This document shows, one piece after another, positions 4,336-18,761 of a DNA stretch of 20,716 bases. The stretch covers positions 1 through 20,716 of the forward strand of contig JACRGO010000215.1 of the NCBI GenBank assembly GCA_016212295.1, written 5' to 3'. Source of the DNA: Nitrospinota bacterium. Its GTDB lineage: Bacteria; Nitrospinota; Nitrospinia; JACRGO01. Position 1 is the stretch's first letter, and each line of letters starts with the position of its first letter. Both the position numbers and the translations under genes were made by a program. The notes under the pieces were generated by a model. That model worked only from the letters and a program-made list of their open reading frames with translations, was not told where the DNA came from and did not search any database.

Positions 4336-4842
4336 ATGTCCGACAAAAGAGAACATTGCAGGGTAGACGCCAAAATGCTTATCGGCAGCAGGCTTCTCCA
4401 AAGAGAAGAGGCCGCTTCCGCTAAATCCAGGATAGGGACCAGGGAAGCGGGCGCGCCTGAATTTCCGCCCCCCCCCGTTCAAGACGACCCGCGATTAAAC
4501 GAGTGGTTGAAGTTGCTCCATACTAAGCTGAGCGGCCTGCTGGCCCTTCACGCCAGTGAAAAAAAAGGGGCTGTGGAAATGAAAATGCGTCCGGTGAATA
4601 TAAGCGCAGGCGGCATTATGTTTCCGCCGGAGGTTGGTTACAAGCCAGGCGACAGGATTGAAATTCACATGGAACTTCCAATGAAAAAACCCGCGGCGCT
4701 TGTGGTTATCGCGGAGGTGCTGCGTGTAAGTCCGCCCCTGGTTTGCGGTTCCTTCATTAATATGGAGGAAAATGTGAAGCAAAAATTGTCCGAGTTCGTT
4801 TTTTTCAGGGAACGGGAAATACTAATGTCTGAAAGGATGTAG
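4336..4842 (+). CDS. PilZ-domain c-di-GMP-binding protein with long internal helix
   Basis: This 168-residue protein carries both c-di-GMP-binding signatures of PilZ: RxxxR at residues 5-9 (REHCR) and NxSxxG at residues 88-93 (NISAGG). The beta-barrel segment continues with YKPGDRIEIHMELPM. About 78 residues separate the two motifs, far more than in a minimal PilZ domain. The insert contains a Pro-rich patch and a predicted amphipathic helix (LNEWLKLLHTKLSGLLAL), so oligomerisation through that helix is plausible, as known for tetrameric PilZ proteins. The Pro run is encoded by nine consecutive C at 4468-4476. The stop lies 10 bp before motA, so a job in c-di-GMP control of the stator is a reasonable inference. 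Confidence 0.85.
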   Translation: MSDKREHCRVDAKMLIGSRLLQREEAASAKSRIGTREAGAPEFPPPPVQDDPRLNEWLKLLHTKLSGLLALHASEKKGAVEMKMRPVNISAGGIMFPPEVGYKPGDRIEIHMELPMKKPAALVVIAEVLRVSPPLVCGSFINMEENVKQKLSEFVFFREREILMSERM

Positions 4843-4852
4843 GGGGCCGCCA

Positions 4853-5725
4853 ATGATATTTATCGGATTTATCGCCGTTACACTTGCCGTGGTGGGCGGC
4901 TACTTGATGGAGCAGGGCAATCTCCACATACTTTTTCAACCCGCCGAGGTCGTGATTATATTCGGCGCCGCTATAGGGGGATTCATTATCGCCACGCCCT
5001 CCCACGTCATCAAACTGGTTAAGGAAGGAATAGGCCAGGCGTTTAAAGGCAGGATGTACACGAAAAATGATTATATAGAGCTTTTATCGCTATTGTATGA
5101 AACTCTTCAAAAGATAGGAAAGGAGGGATTGAGGGAGATTGAAAAGGACGTGAACAATCCTGAAAAATGCGCTTTGTTTAAAAAATACCCTCTGGTTTTC
5201 AATAACCCTCTGGCCATGACGTTTTTAGTGGATATTCTCCGGAGCATCATCTCCACCACGCTTTCGGCCCACGAGCTGGAGTCCTTGCTGGACAACGAGT
5301 TGGAGACAATCTATGAAGATGTGCTGGCTTCCTCCAAGAGCGTGGCCAACGTGGCTGACGCTCTTCCAGGGCTTGGAATCGTCGCCGCGGTCCTGGGGGT
5401 GGTCATCACAATGCAGAAAATGAGCGAACCTCCGGAAGTGCTTGGACACAGCATAGGCGCGGCGATGGTGGGCACCTTCCTTGGCGTCTTGATGTGCTAT
5501 GGTTTCGTCGGGCCCTTGGCTAAAAAACTGGAATATATCGCCGAGGAACACAGGAATTTCCTTGACGTCATACGTGTGGTCTTTGTTTCCTTTACCGGCG
5601 GGGCGCACTATATGATCGCAACCGAGTTCGGCAGGCGGGTCATTCCTCCAAACCTGAGGCCGACTTTTGATGAAACGGAGCGTGTTGTGGGACGAAAAGA
5701 GAAAAAAGAAAAAAAAGGGAAATGA
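4853..5725 (+). CDS. motA: Flagellar motor stator protein MotA
   Basis: This 290-residue protein starts in typical MotA style (MIFIGFIAVTLAVVGGYLME, then FQPAEVVIIFGAA). Four membrane helices are visible at about 2-20, 32-50, 170-188 and 203-222. The two conserved prolines next to the proton channel are present: P172 in ALPGLGIVAAVLGVV and P221 in FVGPLAKKLEYI. The cytoplasmic loop between helices 2 and 3, which contacts FliG in the rotor, is intact. The C-terminus is strongly basic (GRKEKKEKKGK). With MotB it forms the ion-conducting stator in the inner membrane. A GGGGG-rich Shine-Dalgarno sequence at 4842-4846 precedes the ATG, directly after the pilZ stop. motB follows after 88 bp containing a repeat. 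Confidence 0.96.
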   Translation: MIFIGFIAVTLAVVGGYLMEQGNLHILFQPAEVVIIFGAAIGGFIIATPSHVIKLVKEGIGQAFKGRMYTKNDYIELLSLLYETLQKIGKEGLREIEKDVNNPEKCALFKKYPLVFNNPLAMTFLVDILRSIISTTLSAHELESLLDNELETIYEDVLASSKSVANVADALPGLGIVAAVLGVVITMQKMSEPPEVLGHSIGAAMVGTFLGVLMCYGFVGPLAKKLEYIAEEHRNFLDVIRVVFVSFTGGAHYMIATEFGRRVIPPNLRPTFDETERVVGRKEKKEKKGK

Positions 5726-5733
5726 CATTGGGG

Positions 5734-5775
5734 CGTCTTCCCGCTTATCAATGACAAATGGCAAATGCCCAATGA
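5734..5775. repeat. Repeat between motA and motB, related to the insert of the 18292-18461 element
   Basis: The stretch GTCTTCCCGCTTATCAATGA (from 5738) and the following CAAATG and CCAATGACT words match, with scattered differences, the reverse complement of about 18366-18408, where the equivalent sequence sits inside the longer copy of a dispersed repeat. The motA-motB spacer thus appears to have been invaded by a short element of this family. It contains no coding sequence. Confidence 0.6.
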
Positions 5776-5813
5776 CTCTTTCCTAATGAAAATTCCCATA
5801 CTAATAGAAAGAC

Positions 5814-6578
5814 ATGGAAGAAGAAGAAAACACTGAAGAACAAAGCACTATAATCGTCAAAAAAATAAAAAAAGTCCATCACGGGGGCCATGGCGGAAGC
5901 TGGAAAGTGGCATACGCCGACTTTGTCACCGCCATGATGGCCTTGTTTCTGTTGTTGTGGCTCATAGCGAATGTCCCGGCCAAAAAGAAGGGGGAGTTGG
6001 CGGGCTATATGAAGAACCACAGCATTTTTAAACCGTCCGGCGTCTCCCTTACCGACAAAGGCCCGTCCCCATTCGGGGAAACGGTAAGGGCCACTGGAAA
6101 AGAGGCCGCCATTGCGGACAAGGGAACGGCAGTGGAGGAGGAATTGAAAAGATTCGCCAGGGACGTGACATTGGAACTAGGAGACCTTCAGGACCATGTC
6201 GTTATAGAAATGCTGGACGGAAAAATCAGGATTAATCTTGTGGACAAGGAAGAGGAACCCGCCTTCCCTCCGGGCGGAACCATGCCGAACGACATGGGGA
6301 AAAAACTCCTGAAGTACACCGCCCATACCATAAAAAACACCAATTACAGGATTGCCGTGGAAGGACATACAGACGCCCATCCCTTTGTCGGGGGCGGACT
6401 GTCCAATTGGGACATTTCCACCATGAGGGCCTCGGAGGCAAGAAGGGAGTTGGAGGCGAACGGTTTGGAAGCGTCAAGGTTCGACAGGGTGGTGGGATAC
6501 GCCGCTACTCAGCCCTTGATCAAGGGAGATCCCTTGAATCCGCACAACCGGAGGATCAGCTTGCTGTTGTTTCAATAG
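5814..6578 (+). CDS. motB: Flagellar motor stator protein MotB (OmpA-like peptidoglycan anchor)
   Basis: This 254-residue protein has the hallmark MotB N-terminus IIVKKIKK, a Gly/His-rich patch, then GSWKVAYADFVTAMMALFLL, with D36 as the proton-binding aspartate and a single membrane helix at about 35-53. The plug and linker region follows, then an OmpA-like peptidoglycan-binding domain (IAVEGHTDAHPF, then MRASEARRELEANGL, then NPHNRRISLLL). All key residues appear present, so the stator should be functional. The extreme N-terminus is unusually acidic (MEEEENTEEQ). The ATG at 5814 is preceded by a weak AGAAAG ribosome-binding site. Confidence 0.96.
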   Translation: MEEEENTEEQSTIIVKKIKKVHHGGHGGSWKVAYADFVTAMMALFLLLWLIANVPAKKKGELAGYMKNHSIFKPSGVSLTDKGPSPFGETVRATGKEAAIADKGTAVEEELKRFARDVTLELGDLQDHVVIEMLDGKIRINLVDKEEEPAFPPGGTMPNDMGKKLLKYTAHTIKNTNYRIAVEGHTDAHPFVGGGLSNWDISTMRASEARRELEANGLEASRFDRVVGYAATQPLIKGDPLNPHNRRISLLLFQ

Positions 6579-6810: not shown

Positions 6811-7227
6811 TTATTTTTCTTTGAATTTCGCAAGCTCTCTCCTGGATAGAAGCAAGGATAGATGCGTGCTTACCTTGGTCAACAATTCCAACCGGTCAAA
6901 AGGCTTTGTTATATAGTCCACCGCCCCCAGTTCAAATCCTTTTTTCCTGTTTTCCGCTTCGTCCATGGCGGTCAGAAACACTATCGGGATGTCCCTTGTC
7001 CTTGCGTCGCTTTTGAGGCGGCTGCACACCTCGTAGCCATTCATTTCCGGCATCATTATATCAAGCAGAATAAGGTCAGGAGGATCGGATTCAACCATCC
7101 GAATGGCGCTTTCTCCGCCATGGGCGGTTTTTACCTCGCACTCATCGGCAAGGGTCTTGGCTAAAACATTCAGGTTGAACTCGGAATCGTCAACCACGAG
7201 CACTTTGCATTCCGAAAAGTCTTCCAT
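6811..7227 (-). CDS. Stand-alone response-regulator receiver protein (CheY-like)
   Basis: This 138-residue protein is a single REC domain with the acidic pair D13-D14, phospho-acceptor D56 (LILLDIMMPEMNGYEV), T86 (VFLTAMD) and K108 (YITKPF). A short, probably helical tail (LSRRELAKFKEK) follows and there is no output domain. All phosphorylation residues are present. A perfect AGGAGG Shine-Dalgarno sequence at 7237-7242 precedes the ATG. It faces motB convergently and could be an orphan partner of the kinase at 1541-3331 or a motor-binding protein of the CheY type, but the MMPEMNGYEVC pattern is common to many receiver domains and does not prove either role. Confidence 0.92.
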   Translation of the reverse strand: MEDFSECKVLVVDDSEFNLNVLAKTLADECEVKTAHGGESAIRMVESDPPDLILLDIMMPEMNGYEVCSRLKSDARTRDIPIVFLTAMDEAENRKKGFELGAVDYITKPFDRLELLTKVSTHLSLLLSRRELAKFKEK

Positions 7228-16017: not shown

Positions 16018-16024
16018 AGCGCGG

Positions 16025-16223
16025 CATGTCCGCAAACAAAATAAATTTCGATGTATTCAAACGTTCGATGATATTATTACGTTCCGCAATTTACGTTTTC
16101 CGCTTGAAATAAAATCAGCGTTGAATGCTTCAAGAGAAATTTATTTTGTTTGCGGACATGCGCGCTCCTGGAAACGGTTGAAAAATTTGCGCGGACAACG
16201 TAAATTTCTGAATGTAATAATAT
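16025..16223. repeat. Two interleaved inverted repeats upstream of uvrA
   Basis: Arm A at 16025-16049 (begins CATGTCCGCAAACAAAATAA) is the exact reverse complement of A' at 16136-16160 over 25 bases. Arm B at 16071-16103 matches the reverse complement of B' at 16191-16223 at 29 of 33 positions (ATATTATTAC and AATTTACGTT words). The order is A-B-A'-B', so the two stems cannot form together as simple hairpins: they would be alternatives or a pseudoknot. The whole lies in the 243-bp leader between the double-receiver gene and uvrA, on the uvrA transcript side. A MITE-like element with 25-bp terminal repeats is another reading. Confidence 0.85.
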
Positions 16224-16260
16224 ATAAGGCAGGCATGTTACAAGGAAGCGGCCCGCGCAA

Positions 16261-17217
16261 TCAATTTCTGGTGGTAAGGGCCAGGTAAATCCCGATGATC
16301 GCGCCTATGAGAGTGACTATGAACGTCAGGACAATGTGTCTCATCCTGTAAGGGGATTCTTCGACTTTTTCCATCTGGGCCAGCAAAAGCTCAGTGGTCT
16401 CGGCCAGGCGCGCGTTGAAATGGTTTTCCATGGACAGGAGCCTGGACTTTTTTACTCCCTCCCGGACCCGGGCCAGGACCTCTTCCCTGTCAAAGGGTTT
16501 TTTTATGTAATCAATGGCCCCCCCCTTCATCAAGTCAACGGCCTTGTCCTCTGACCCGTGGGCGGTCACAATGATGACAGGGAGTTCCGGGTGTTCCTTT
16601 TTGATGATTTCCAGAACCTGAGCCCCGTTCATTTCAGGCATCATGAGGTCCAAAAGGACCAAGTCCGGCTTTTCATGTTTAATCATCTCAAGCCCTTTTT
16701 TCCCGTTCACGGCCTCGACCGTGTCGTAATTTTCCTTTTCCAGTATTGCAATTAGCAGTTTAATGATCGATGGATCGTCGTCCACCAGCAAAATTTTTTC
16801 TTTCCCGGTTTTCCTCTTGGGGCGGTCCTCGAAGAGGATATCTTCCACCTTGTCCAGAAAGTCGTCCTCGTCAAACGGCTTATTCAGGACATGGTCGGCG
16901 TTAAAGTGCTTGTCACACCCTATCGTGAACCCTTCGCCATCTCTTAAGCCGTTCACCATGACGGGGGTGAGGGCCAATATGTGGAGGTCCCTGAAATGAG
17001 GATCTGATTTCAATTCGTTTATCAGGCGCAGTCCGCTTATTTGCGGGAGGGTTAACTCCAGGACCACCAGGTCCGGCTTGGAGCTTTTGACGAGCTTCAG
17101 TCCGGCCTTGCCGTCAGACGCGGATTCCACCTCATAATTCCCCTCTCCCTCAAGGGCGTCCAGCATCTTCTTCATGTAACCCGGATTGTCTTCTATGAGG
17201 ATGATTTTTTTCTTCAT
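16261..17217 (-). CDS. Double-receiver protein with degenerate first REC and C-terminal membrane anchor
   Basis: This 318-residue protein has two receiver domains. REC1 (residues 1-128) has E54 in place of the phospho-acceptor aspartate (LVVLELTLPQISG) while keeping E9-D10, T84 and K113, so it cannot be phosphorylated in the normal way and may mimic the active state. REC2 (140-260) is complete: D146-D147-D148, D190 (LVLLDLMMPEMNG), T218 and K240. A charged helix (FNARLAETTELLLAQMEKVEE) leads to a single membrane segment near residues 294-314 (HIVLTFIVTLIGAIIGIYLAL), followed by TTRN. There is no DNA-binding or enzymatic output domain. A C-terminal anchor on a tandem receiver protein is unusual and suggests a signal relay tethered to the inner membrane. 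It lies upstream of uvrA in the same direction, with no kinase next to it. Confidence 0.9.
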   Translation of the reverse strand: MKKKIILIEDNPGYMKKMLDALEGEGNYEVESASDGKAGLKLVKSSKPDLVVLELTLPQISGLRLINELKSDPHFRDLHILALTPVMVNGLRDGEGFTIGCDKHFNADHVLNKPFDEDDFLDKVEDILFEDRPKRKTGKEKILLVDDDPSIIKLLIAILEKENYDTVEAVNGKKGLEMIKHEKPDLVLLDLMMPEMNGAQVLEIIKKEHPELPVIIVTAHGSEDKAVDLMKGGAIDYIKKPFDREEVLARVREGVKKSRLLSMENHFNARLAETTELLLAQMEKVEESPYRMRHIVLTFIVTLIGAIIGIYLALTTRN

Positions 17218-17378: not shown

Positions 17379-17482
17379 ATCCCCCTGGCCCCCTTTTTTA
17401 AGGGGGAATATCTCAGAAATTCCCTTATGGCGGGGAGTATCTCAGAAATTCCCCCCTGGCAAGGGGGGATCAAGGGGGGTGT
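17379..17482. repeat. C/G-run palindromic repeat with internal direct repeat
   Basis: This element fills much of the 338-bp gene-free stretch 17218-17555. CCCCCTGGCCCCC near 17381 and GGGGGGATCAAGGGGGG near 17464 form outer arms. Inner C-run/G-run hairpins lie at 17388-17405 and 17450-17468. Between them TATCTCAGAAATTCCC occurs twice, at 17409-17424 and 17438-17453. Its order of C runs, G runs, AAATTC and a terminal GGTGTG resembles the repeats at both window ends. The rest of the stretch must hold the divergent promoters of the double-receiver and MOSC genes. Confidence 0.75.
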
Positions 17483-18484: not shown

Positions 18485-18736
18485 TTACGACTGGCTGTCA
18501 ACCTTTCCCCGCAGAGATTTTTTTTGGCCCAGTTTTATTTTGCCGGCCAAGCGCCTTTCCAGATATCCTTTTGTTGACCTTGTCGCTCTACGCTTCTTAC
18601 GAGGAACGGCAATGCTCTTTATAAGATATTGAAGTCTATGGAGCGCGTCTCCCCTGTTCTTTTCCTGGCCATCATTTCCTCTTACCATGACATGGTAAAA
18701 GGCCCCTGGGACATGTAAACGCGATTTTCTCGCCAT
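18485..18736 (-). pseudogene. Remnant of a REP-associated tyrosine transposase (RAYT, Y1 transposase family)
   Basis: The 83-residue frame from the ATG at 18736 starts MARKSRLHVPGAFYHVMVRG, the unmistakable N-terminus of RAYT/TnpA-REP proteins (M-A-R-x-x-R-x-x-x-P-G-A-x-Y-H-V). After NDGQ the normal sequence is lost and the frame continues as a basic tail (YLIKSIAVPRKKRRATRS), which may come from the C-terminal part of a longer homologue. The HUH metal-binding pair and the catalytic tyrosine region of a full protein of about 150-300 residues are missing, so this is an internal-deletion relic. A REP-like sequence stands just upstream at 18762-18786. Confidence 0.82.
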
Positions 18737-18761
18737 ATTGCCTTGAAATAACAACCACTAA

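Follow-up and report, generated by a model that had tools for sequence, protein, structure and literature searches.

Sequence analysis supports the assignment of the gene described in Table 1 as encoding a membrane-anchored tandem receiver (REC-REC-TM) in which no further output domain is recognised, and we suggest that the novelty of the protein lies in its C-terminal tail, a membrane helix with a G-x-x-x-G motif that is shared with other small proteins. We regard this helix, and not the altered switch residue of the first receiver, as the real lead because nearly the same helix is found in a sister protein and in free-standing tiny proteins encoded beside signalling genes. The gene lies in a window of 20,716 nucleotides (the whole stretch of DNA analysed), contig C173 in an assembly of 3.7 Mb. 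Response regulators are usually classed by their output domain, which may bind DNA, act as an enzyme or serve for docking. If our reading is true, a receiver with a short membrane helix as its sole output, shared with mini-proteins, would be a simple tie between phosphorylation and membrane assembly. Asp-less receivers, two-receiver proteins and small lineage-specific modules found alone or fused to REC (in archaea) are already known.

Architecture and relatives of the protein

In the 318-residue protein Pfam recognises a single type of domain, PF00072, in two copies (whole-protein E=4.3e-52), and no output domain was recognised besides the TM helix. The initial annotation had proposed a tandem receiver with E54 in REC1 and D190 in a complete REC2, a C-terminal membrane helix and no other recognisable output domain. 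The reading frame, the Pfam result and a residue check confirm the first of these and Pfam the last, while the membrane helix is borne out by the single hydrophobic segment and by the tail, which a paralogue and several stand-alone peptides also have. The AlphaFold2 model, predicted for a monomer, has a mean pLDDT of 87.7 and shows both receivers folded; REC2 is left by a helix of 43 residues (244-286), which is followed by a short break at P289 and by a separate helix spanning residues 290-316.

Table 1. Features of the REC-REC-TM gene, in window coordinates
Feature	Position	Strand	Basis or remark
REC-REC-TM gene	16261..17217	(-)	318 aa, ATG start, open reading frame
REC1, pseudo-receiver (aa 3-128)	16834..17211	(-)	E54 for D, V110 at K-3, Pro at T+1, alpha4 unstructured in model
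E54 codon (GAG)	17056..17058	(-)	sequence
REC2 (aa 140-255)	16453..16800	(-)	PF00072; all catalytic residues present
D190 codon (GAC), predicted phospho-acceptor	16648..16650	(-)	sequence
Extended alpha5 / linker helix (aa 244-286)	16360..16488	(-)	AlphaFold2 model
C-terminal TM tail (aa 294-316), T302-x-x-G305-x-x-x-G309	16270..16338	(-)	common to paralogue and stand-alone small ORFs of genome G015

The best match of known structure over nearly the whole protein is PleD (2v0n, E=4.9e-17), whose degenerate receiver serves as an adaptor. Like PleD (REC-REC'-GGDEF), the window protein has tandem receivers, one of them non-functional as a phospho-acceptor; unlike PleD, it carries a membrane tail in place of the output domain, and the degenerate receiver is the first. 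It is not a PleD, because it has no GGDEF domain, and its score with the NCBIfam PleD model is 130.6 bits, where 474 would be needed. The DVU0259 DivK family (NF045717) gives 143 bits, summed over the two receivers, against a cut-off of 160, and among the best 25 matches listed no NCBIfam receiver family reached its cut-off.

Among full-length proteins, the nearest sequence relatives of the two-receiver part are Nitrospinota REC-REC-histidine kinases and REC-REC-HD proteins (about 30% identity), which differ in that they have HisKA/HATPase or HD domains, keep Asp in REC1 and lack the TM tail. A protein from a genome of the same genus (L180:234-1031) is also REC-REC with no catalytic output, shares 28% of its residues with the window protein across the two receivers and has a PilZ/chemoreceptor neighbourhood; it differs in having 265 residues, ending with REC2 with no TM tail, and keeping, by motif, the Asp of REC1. 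FrzZ-type proteins are dual receivers without an output domain, and resemble the window protein by description in having two receivers and no catalytic output. Two-receiver proteins are common, accounting for 7.7% of two-domain TCS proteins (PMC3018481). Archaeal response regulators possess small output modules of narrow range, several of which occur both alone and fused to REC, and one of which, MetOD3, is a membrane-anchored domain (PMC5847659). The tail is like these modules in all of these respects, a likeness by description with no sequence link known, and unlike them in that they are archaeal and that MetOD3 is N-terminal and about 180 residues long. A phrase search of the literature, with most subscription journals outside its scope, found no membrane-anchored or tandem-receiver-TM regulator.

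A conserved receiver and tail

REC2 is by its residues an ordinary receiver, predicted to be phosphorylatable at D190; its active-site set is complete (D146, D147, D190, T218, Y237 and K240), including the acidic pair, acceptor Asp, Thr/Ser and Lys of PF00072 receivers. The same genome encodes a paralogue of 184 residues (L031:1137-1691, contig C183) that consists of one receiver and the same tail and is about 61-62% identical to the window protein where the two align (residues 138-314). Synonymous sites are saturated between them (pS 0.89 for REC2 and 0.77 for the tail) while pN is 0.25 and 0.28 respectively, which argues that receiver and tail have both been kept by selection since the duplication. 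As the paralogue has the receiver and tail without REC1, we take REC2 and the tail to be the conserved core; in the simplest history, either a REC-TM core gained REC1 or the paralogue lost it.

The only hydrophobic segment of the window protein is a TM helix at approximately residues 295-314 (best 19-mer 295-313, mean Kyte-Doolittle 2.62). It is flanked by R/R/H on the N-terminal side and by few residues on the C-terminal side, and the N-terminal part is for this reason probably cytoplasmic, with N-in tail anchoring. With the last 74 residues as query, the search yielded the paralogue tail (E=1.3e-10) and a 48-residue ORF in contig C16 of G015 (E=3.9e-5), another Nitrospinota genome. The window's genome and 76 others, G015 among them, fall into a single phylum and class. 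A three-sequence profile, built without contig C292, then found a second G015 ORF of 53 residues in that contig (E=2.6e-16), as well as a contig-edge fragment. The four sequences have 12 invariant columns and the consensus H-I-x3-F-x2-T-L-I-G-x-I-x-G-x-Y-L, to which the window tail conforms. The likeness is not due to chance, as it is shared with the paralogue and with independent small ORFs and as the alignment scores of 68 to 163 (68-84 for the stand-alone ORF homology) are far above those of shuffles and of 352 real TM segments (at most 51). Both small ORFs have strong Shine-Dalgarno sequences, and between them dN is 0.23 and dS 0.63 (dN/dS about 0.4).

The remaining 75 genomes of the phylum gave no convincing match to the tail. 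Three further phyla (245, 297 and 282, or 824 genomes) gave three marginal partial matches with E about 5e-4, which were taken as chance, and nothing exceeded the cut-offs of Pfam or NCBIfam. The family is thus very small and confined to two genomes, both MAGs. Judged from sequence, the anchor is real and modular, and the tail is a small lineage-specific family whose invariant G-x-x-x-G suggests helix pairing.

The REC-REC-TM gene is flanked by uvrA, on the same strand and separated from it by a 205-bp repeat, and by a divergent MOSC gene; neither a conserved operon partner nor a kinase gene lies next to it. We considered uvrA and MOSC as operon partners and judged them incidental neighbours. 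The initial annotation had asked whether kinases, chemotaxis genes or uvrA are consistent neighbours, and they are not: the paralogue lies elsewhere, upstream of a gene for a CRP-family regulator. Upstream of the paralogue, and overlapping it by four bases (ATGA), is a gene for a 282-residue protein of no recognised family (L031:292-1140), homologues of which occur only in the window's genome and in a genus-mate; one of them adjoins tandem REC, PilZ and chemoreceptor genes. This remote homologue, a PilZ protein and a chemoreceptor accompany the TM-less REC-REC protein in the same-genus genome, a neighbourhood that again indicates, though it does not prove, a link to chemosensory or c-di-GMP signalling.

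In G015 the small ORFs adjoin YcgR-like PilZ genes, whose products are 45% identical to each other; the ORF precedes PilZ in one contig and follows it in the other. CheX comes next in contigs C16 and C204; in C292 the genes are preceded by one for CRP. The CRP proteins near the tails, at the paralogue locus and in C292, are 35% identical, which is ordinary for the CRP family, and the window's genome gave only weak matches to the G015 PilZ gene when an orthologue was sought. That the G015 peptides and the REC-TM proteins share a pathway is a guess from these neighbours, as the peptides are not fused to REC. The gene sets at L151:6101-8053 and L153:1-1077 of G015 each contain a tail peptide and CheX (and PilZ), followed by a membrane protein of ~180-186 residues, and the CheX of the two sets is near-identical.

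Proposed function

The explanation that we prefer, and to which we would give an even chance, is a tail-anchored response regulator in which REC2 is live, the output is membrane protein-protein contact through the GxxxG tail, and REC1 is an adaptor. REC2 is regarded as live and REC1 as not because the catalytic set is complete in the former and broken in the latter. A kinase or small phosphodonor would phosphorylate D190 at the membrane, and the resulting change on the alpha4-beta5-alpha5 face would pass along alpha5 of REC2, modelled as a single long helix that extends to the TM helix. This could alter self-association, or association with membrane partners; candidates are proteins that also carry the tail, as well as PilZ, CheX-type or motor proteins. 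The output would be a localised protein-protein contact rather than DNA binding or catalysis. REC1 would not be switched by phosphorylation and may, by analogy with the degenerate receiver of PleD, act as a structural adaptor or docking surface. We count the signalling neighbours (CRP by the paralogue and the C292 peptide; PilZ and CheX by the G015 peptides) in favour of this explanation, as far as gene order can indicate function. The lack of a conserved operon partner and of a neighbouring kinase, and the small size of the tail family, count against it. A stronger claim would make the GxxxG tail a novel form of response-regulator output, in which phosphorylation drives the pairing of membrane helices, between receivers or between a receiver and a free tail peptide, and recruits PilZ, CheX or motor partners; this seems to us rather unlikely.

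It is also doubtful that the protein is a membrane-fixed phosphate sink or buffer, whose REC2 would take phosphoryl groups from kinases or phosphorelays and lose them with no output of its own. Such a role would suit a protein that has a TM helix and no output domain, in a genome rich in receivers (41 matches above the search cut-off). However, a sink has no need for a TM helix with a conserved GxxxG that recurs in independent peptides encoded next to PilZ and CheX.

The first receiver and the history of the gene

REC1 retains the acidic pair (E9 and D10), T84 and K113; it is recognised by PF00072 and lacks the key catalytic residue, as Asp-less or pseudo-receivers do. The K-3 aromatic required for Y-T coupling in receivers is replaced by V110, the T+1 residue is Pro, and the alpha4 region (89-103) has pLDDT <50 and forms no alpha4 helix in the AlphaFold2 model. 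Residue 54 was compared among 138 receivers, which are REC1 relatives from the fetched loci, include the window protein and contain no true orthologue: it is Asp in 136, Gly in one and Glu in one, the last being the window protein itself. On present evidence E54 is therefore private to this protein, and we reject a clade-conserved phosphomimetic Glu on the very comparison that the initial annotation had put forward as its test.

That annotation had further suggested a built-in phosphomimetic at E54, which might keep REC1 in an active-like, dimerising state; in its full form, the idea makes the whole protein a permanent active dimer that REC2 tunes. Glu is indeed the commonest replacement in Asp-less receivers, which make up ~4% of the domains identified as receivers across all life, and at the Asp position it is able to activate some receivers in part (2025 review, PMC12632262); REC1 also keeps T84 and K113, residues able to hold a Glu. 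By the same figures, the altered residue is an ordinary one (PMC12632262). Nevertheless, we consider a REC1 locked 'on' quite unlikely, because of V110, the Pro at T+1 and the unstructured alpha4 of the model, and E54 occurs in no relative. REC1 is better read as a degenerate pseudo-receiver.

An orthologue of the whole REC-REC-TM protein was found in none of the 77 genomes of the phylum, including a 99%-complete genome of the same genus, and a close-range scan of the genome collection, whose reach is close relatives, gave none. This absence from the same genus, the high-copy 205-bp repeat just downstream of the gene and the degeneracy of REC1 are what one might expect if receivers had been joined to a TM peptide by accident, or if such a fusion were in decay, and the product did little. 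We consider this reading improbable in view of the purifying selection on REC2 and tail relative to the paralogue, the GC3 of the gene (0.63-0.71, in line with neighbouring genes) and the 318-codon open frame. Contamination of single contigs in the two MAGs is possible; for the window gene, both the existence of the paralogue and the codon usage speak against this.

The ~205-bp repeat (16020-16225) has sharp bounds and two interlocked inverted repeats (26 nt, 100%; 33 nt, 88%), and about 40 copies of 80-94% identity are spread over the contigs of the genome. It folds far better than shuffles (z -5.9), has no Rfam match and looks like a non-autonomous mobile element. Upstream of the gene, a C/G-rich intergenic stretch (17380-17480) contains two 29-nt direct repeats that are 86% identical. 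An 89-residue ORF (18485-18754, (-) strand), with no Pfam match at 0.001, has a start similar by eye to REP-associated (RAYT) transposases. Elsewhere in the window, a PilZ protein followed by motA and motB is encoded at 4336-6578 and 6811-7227, with a single-domain receiver nearby on the opposite strand.
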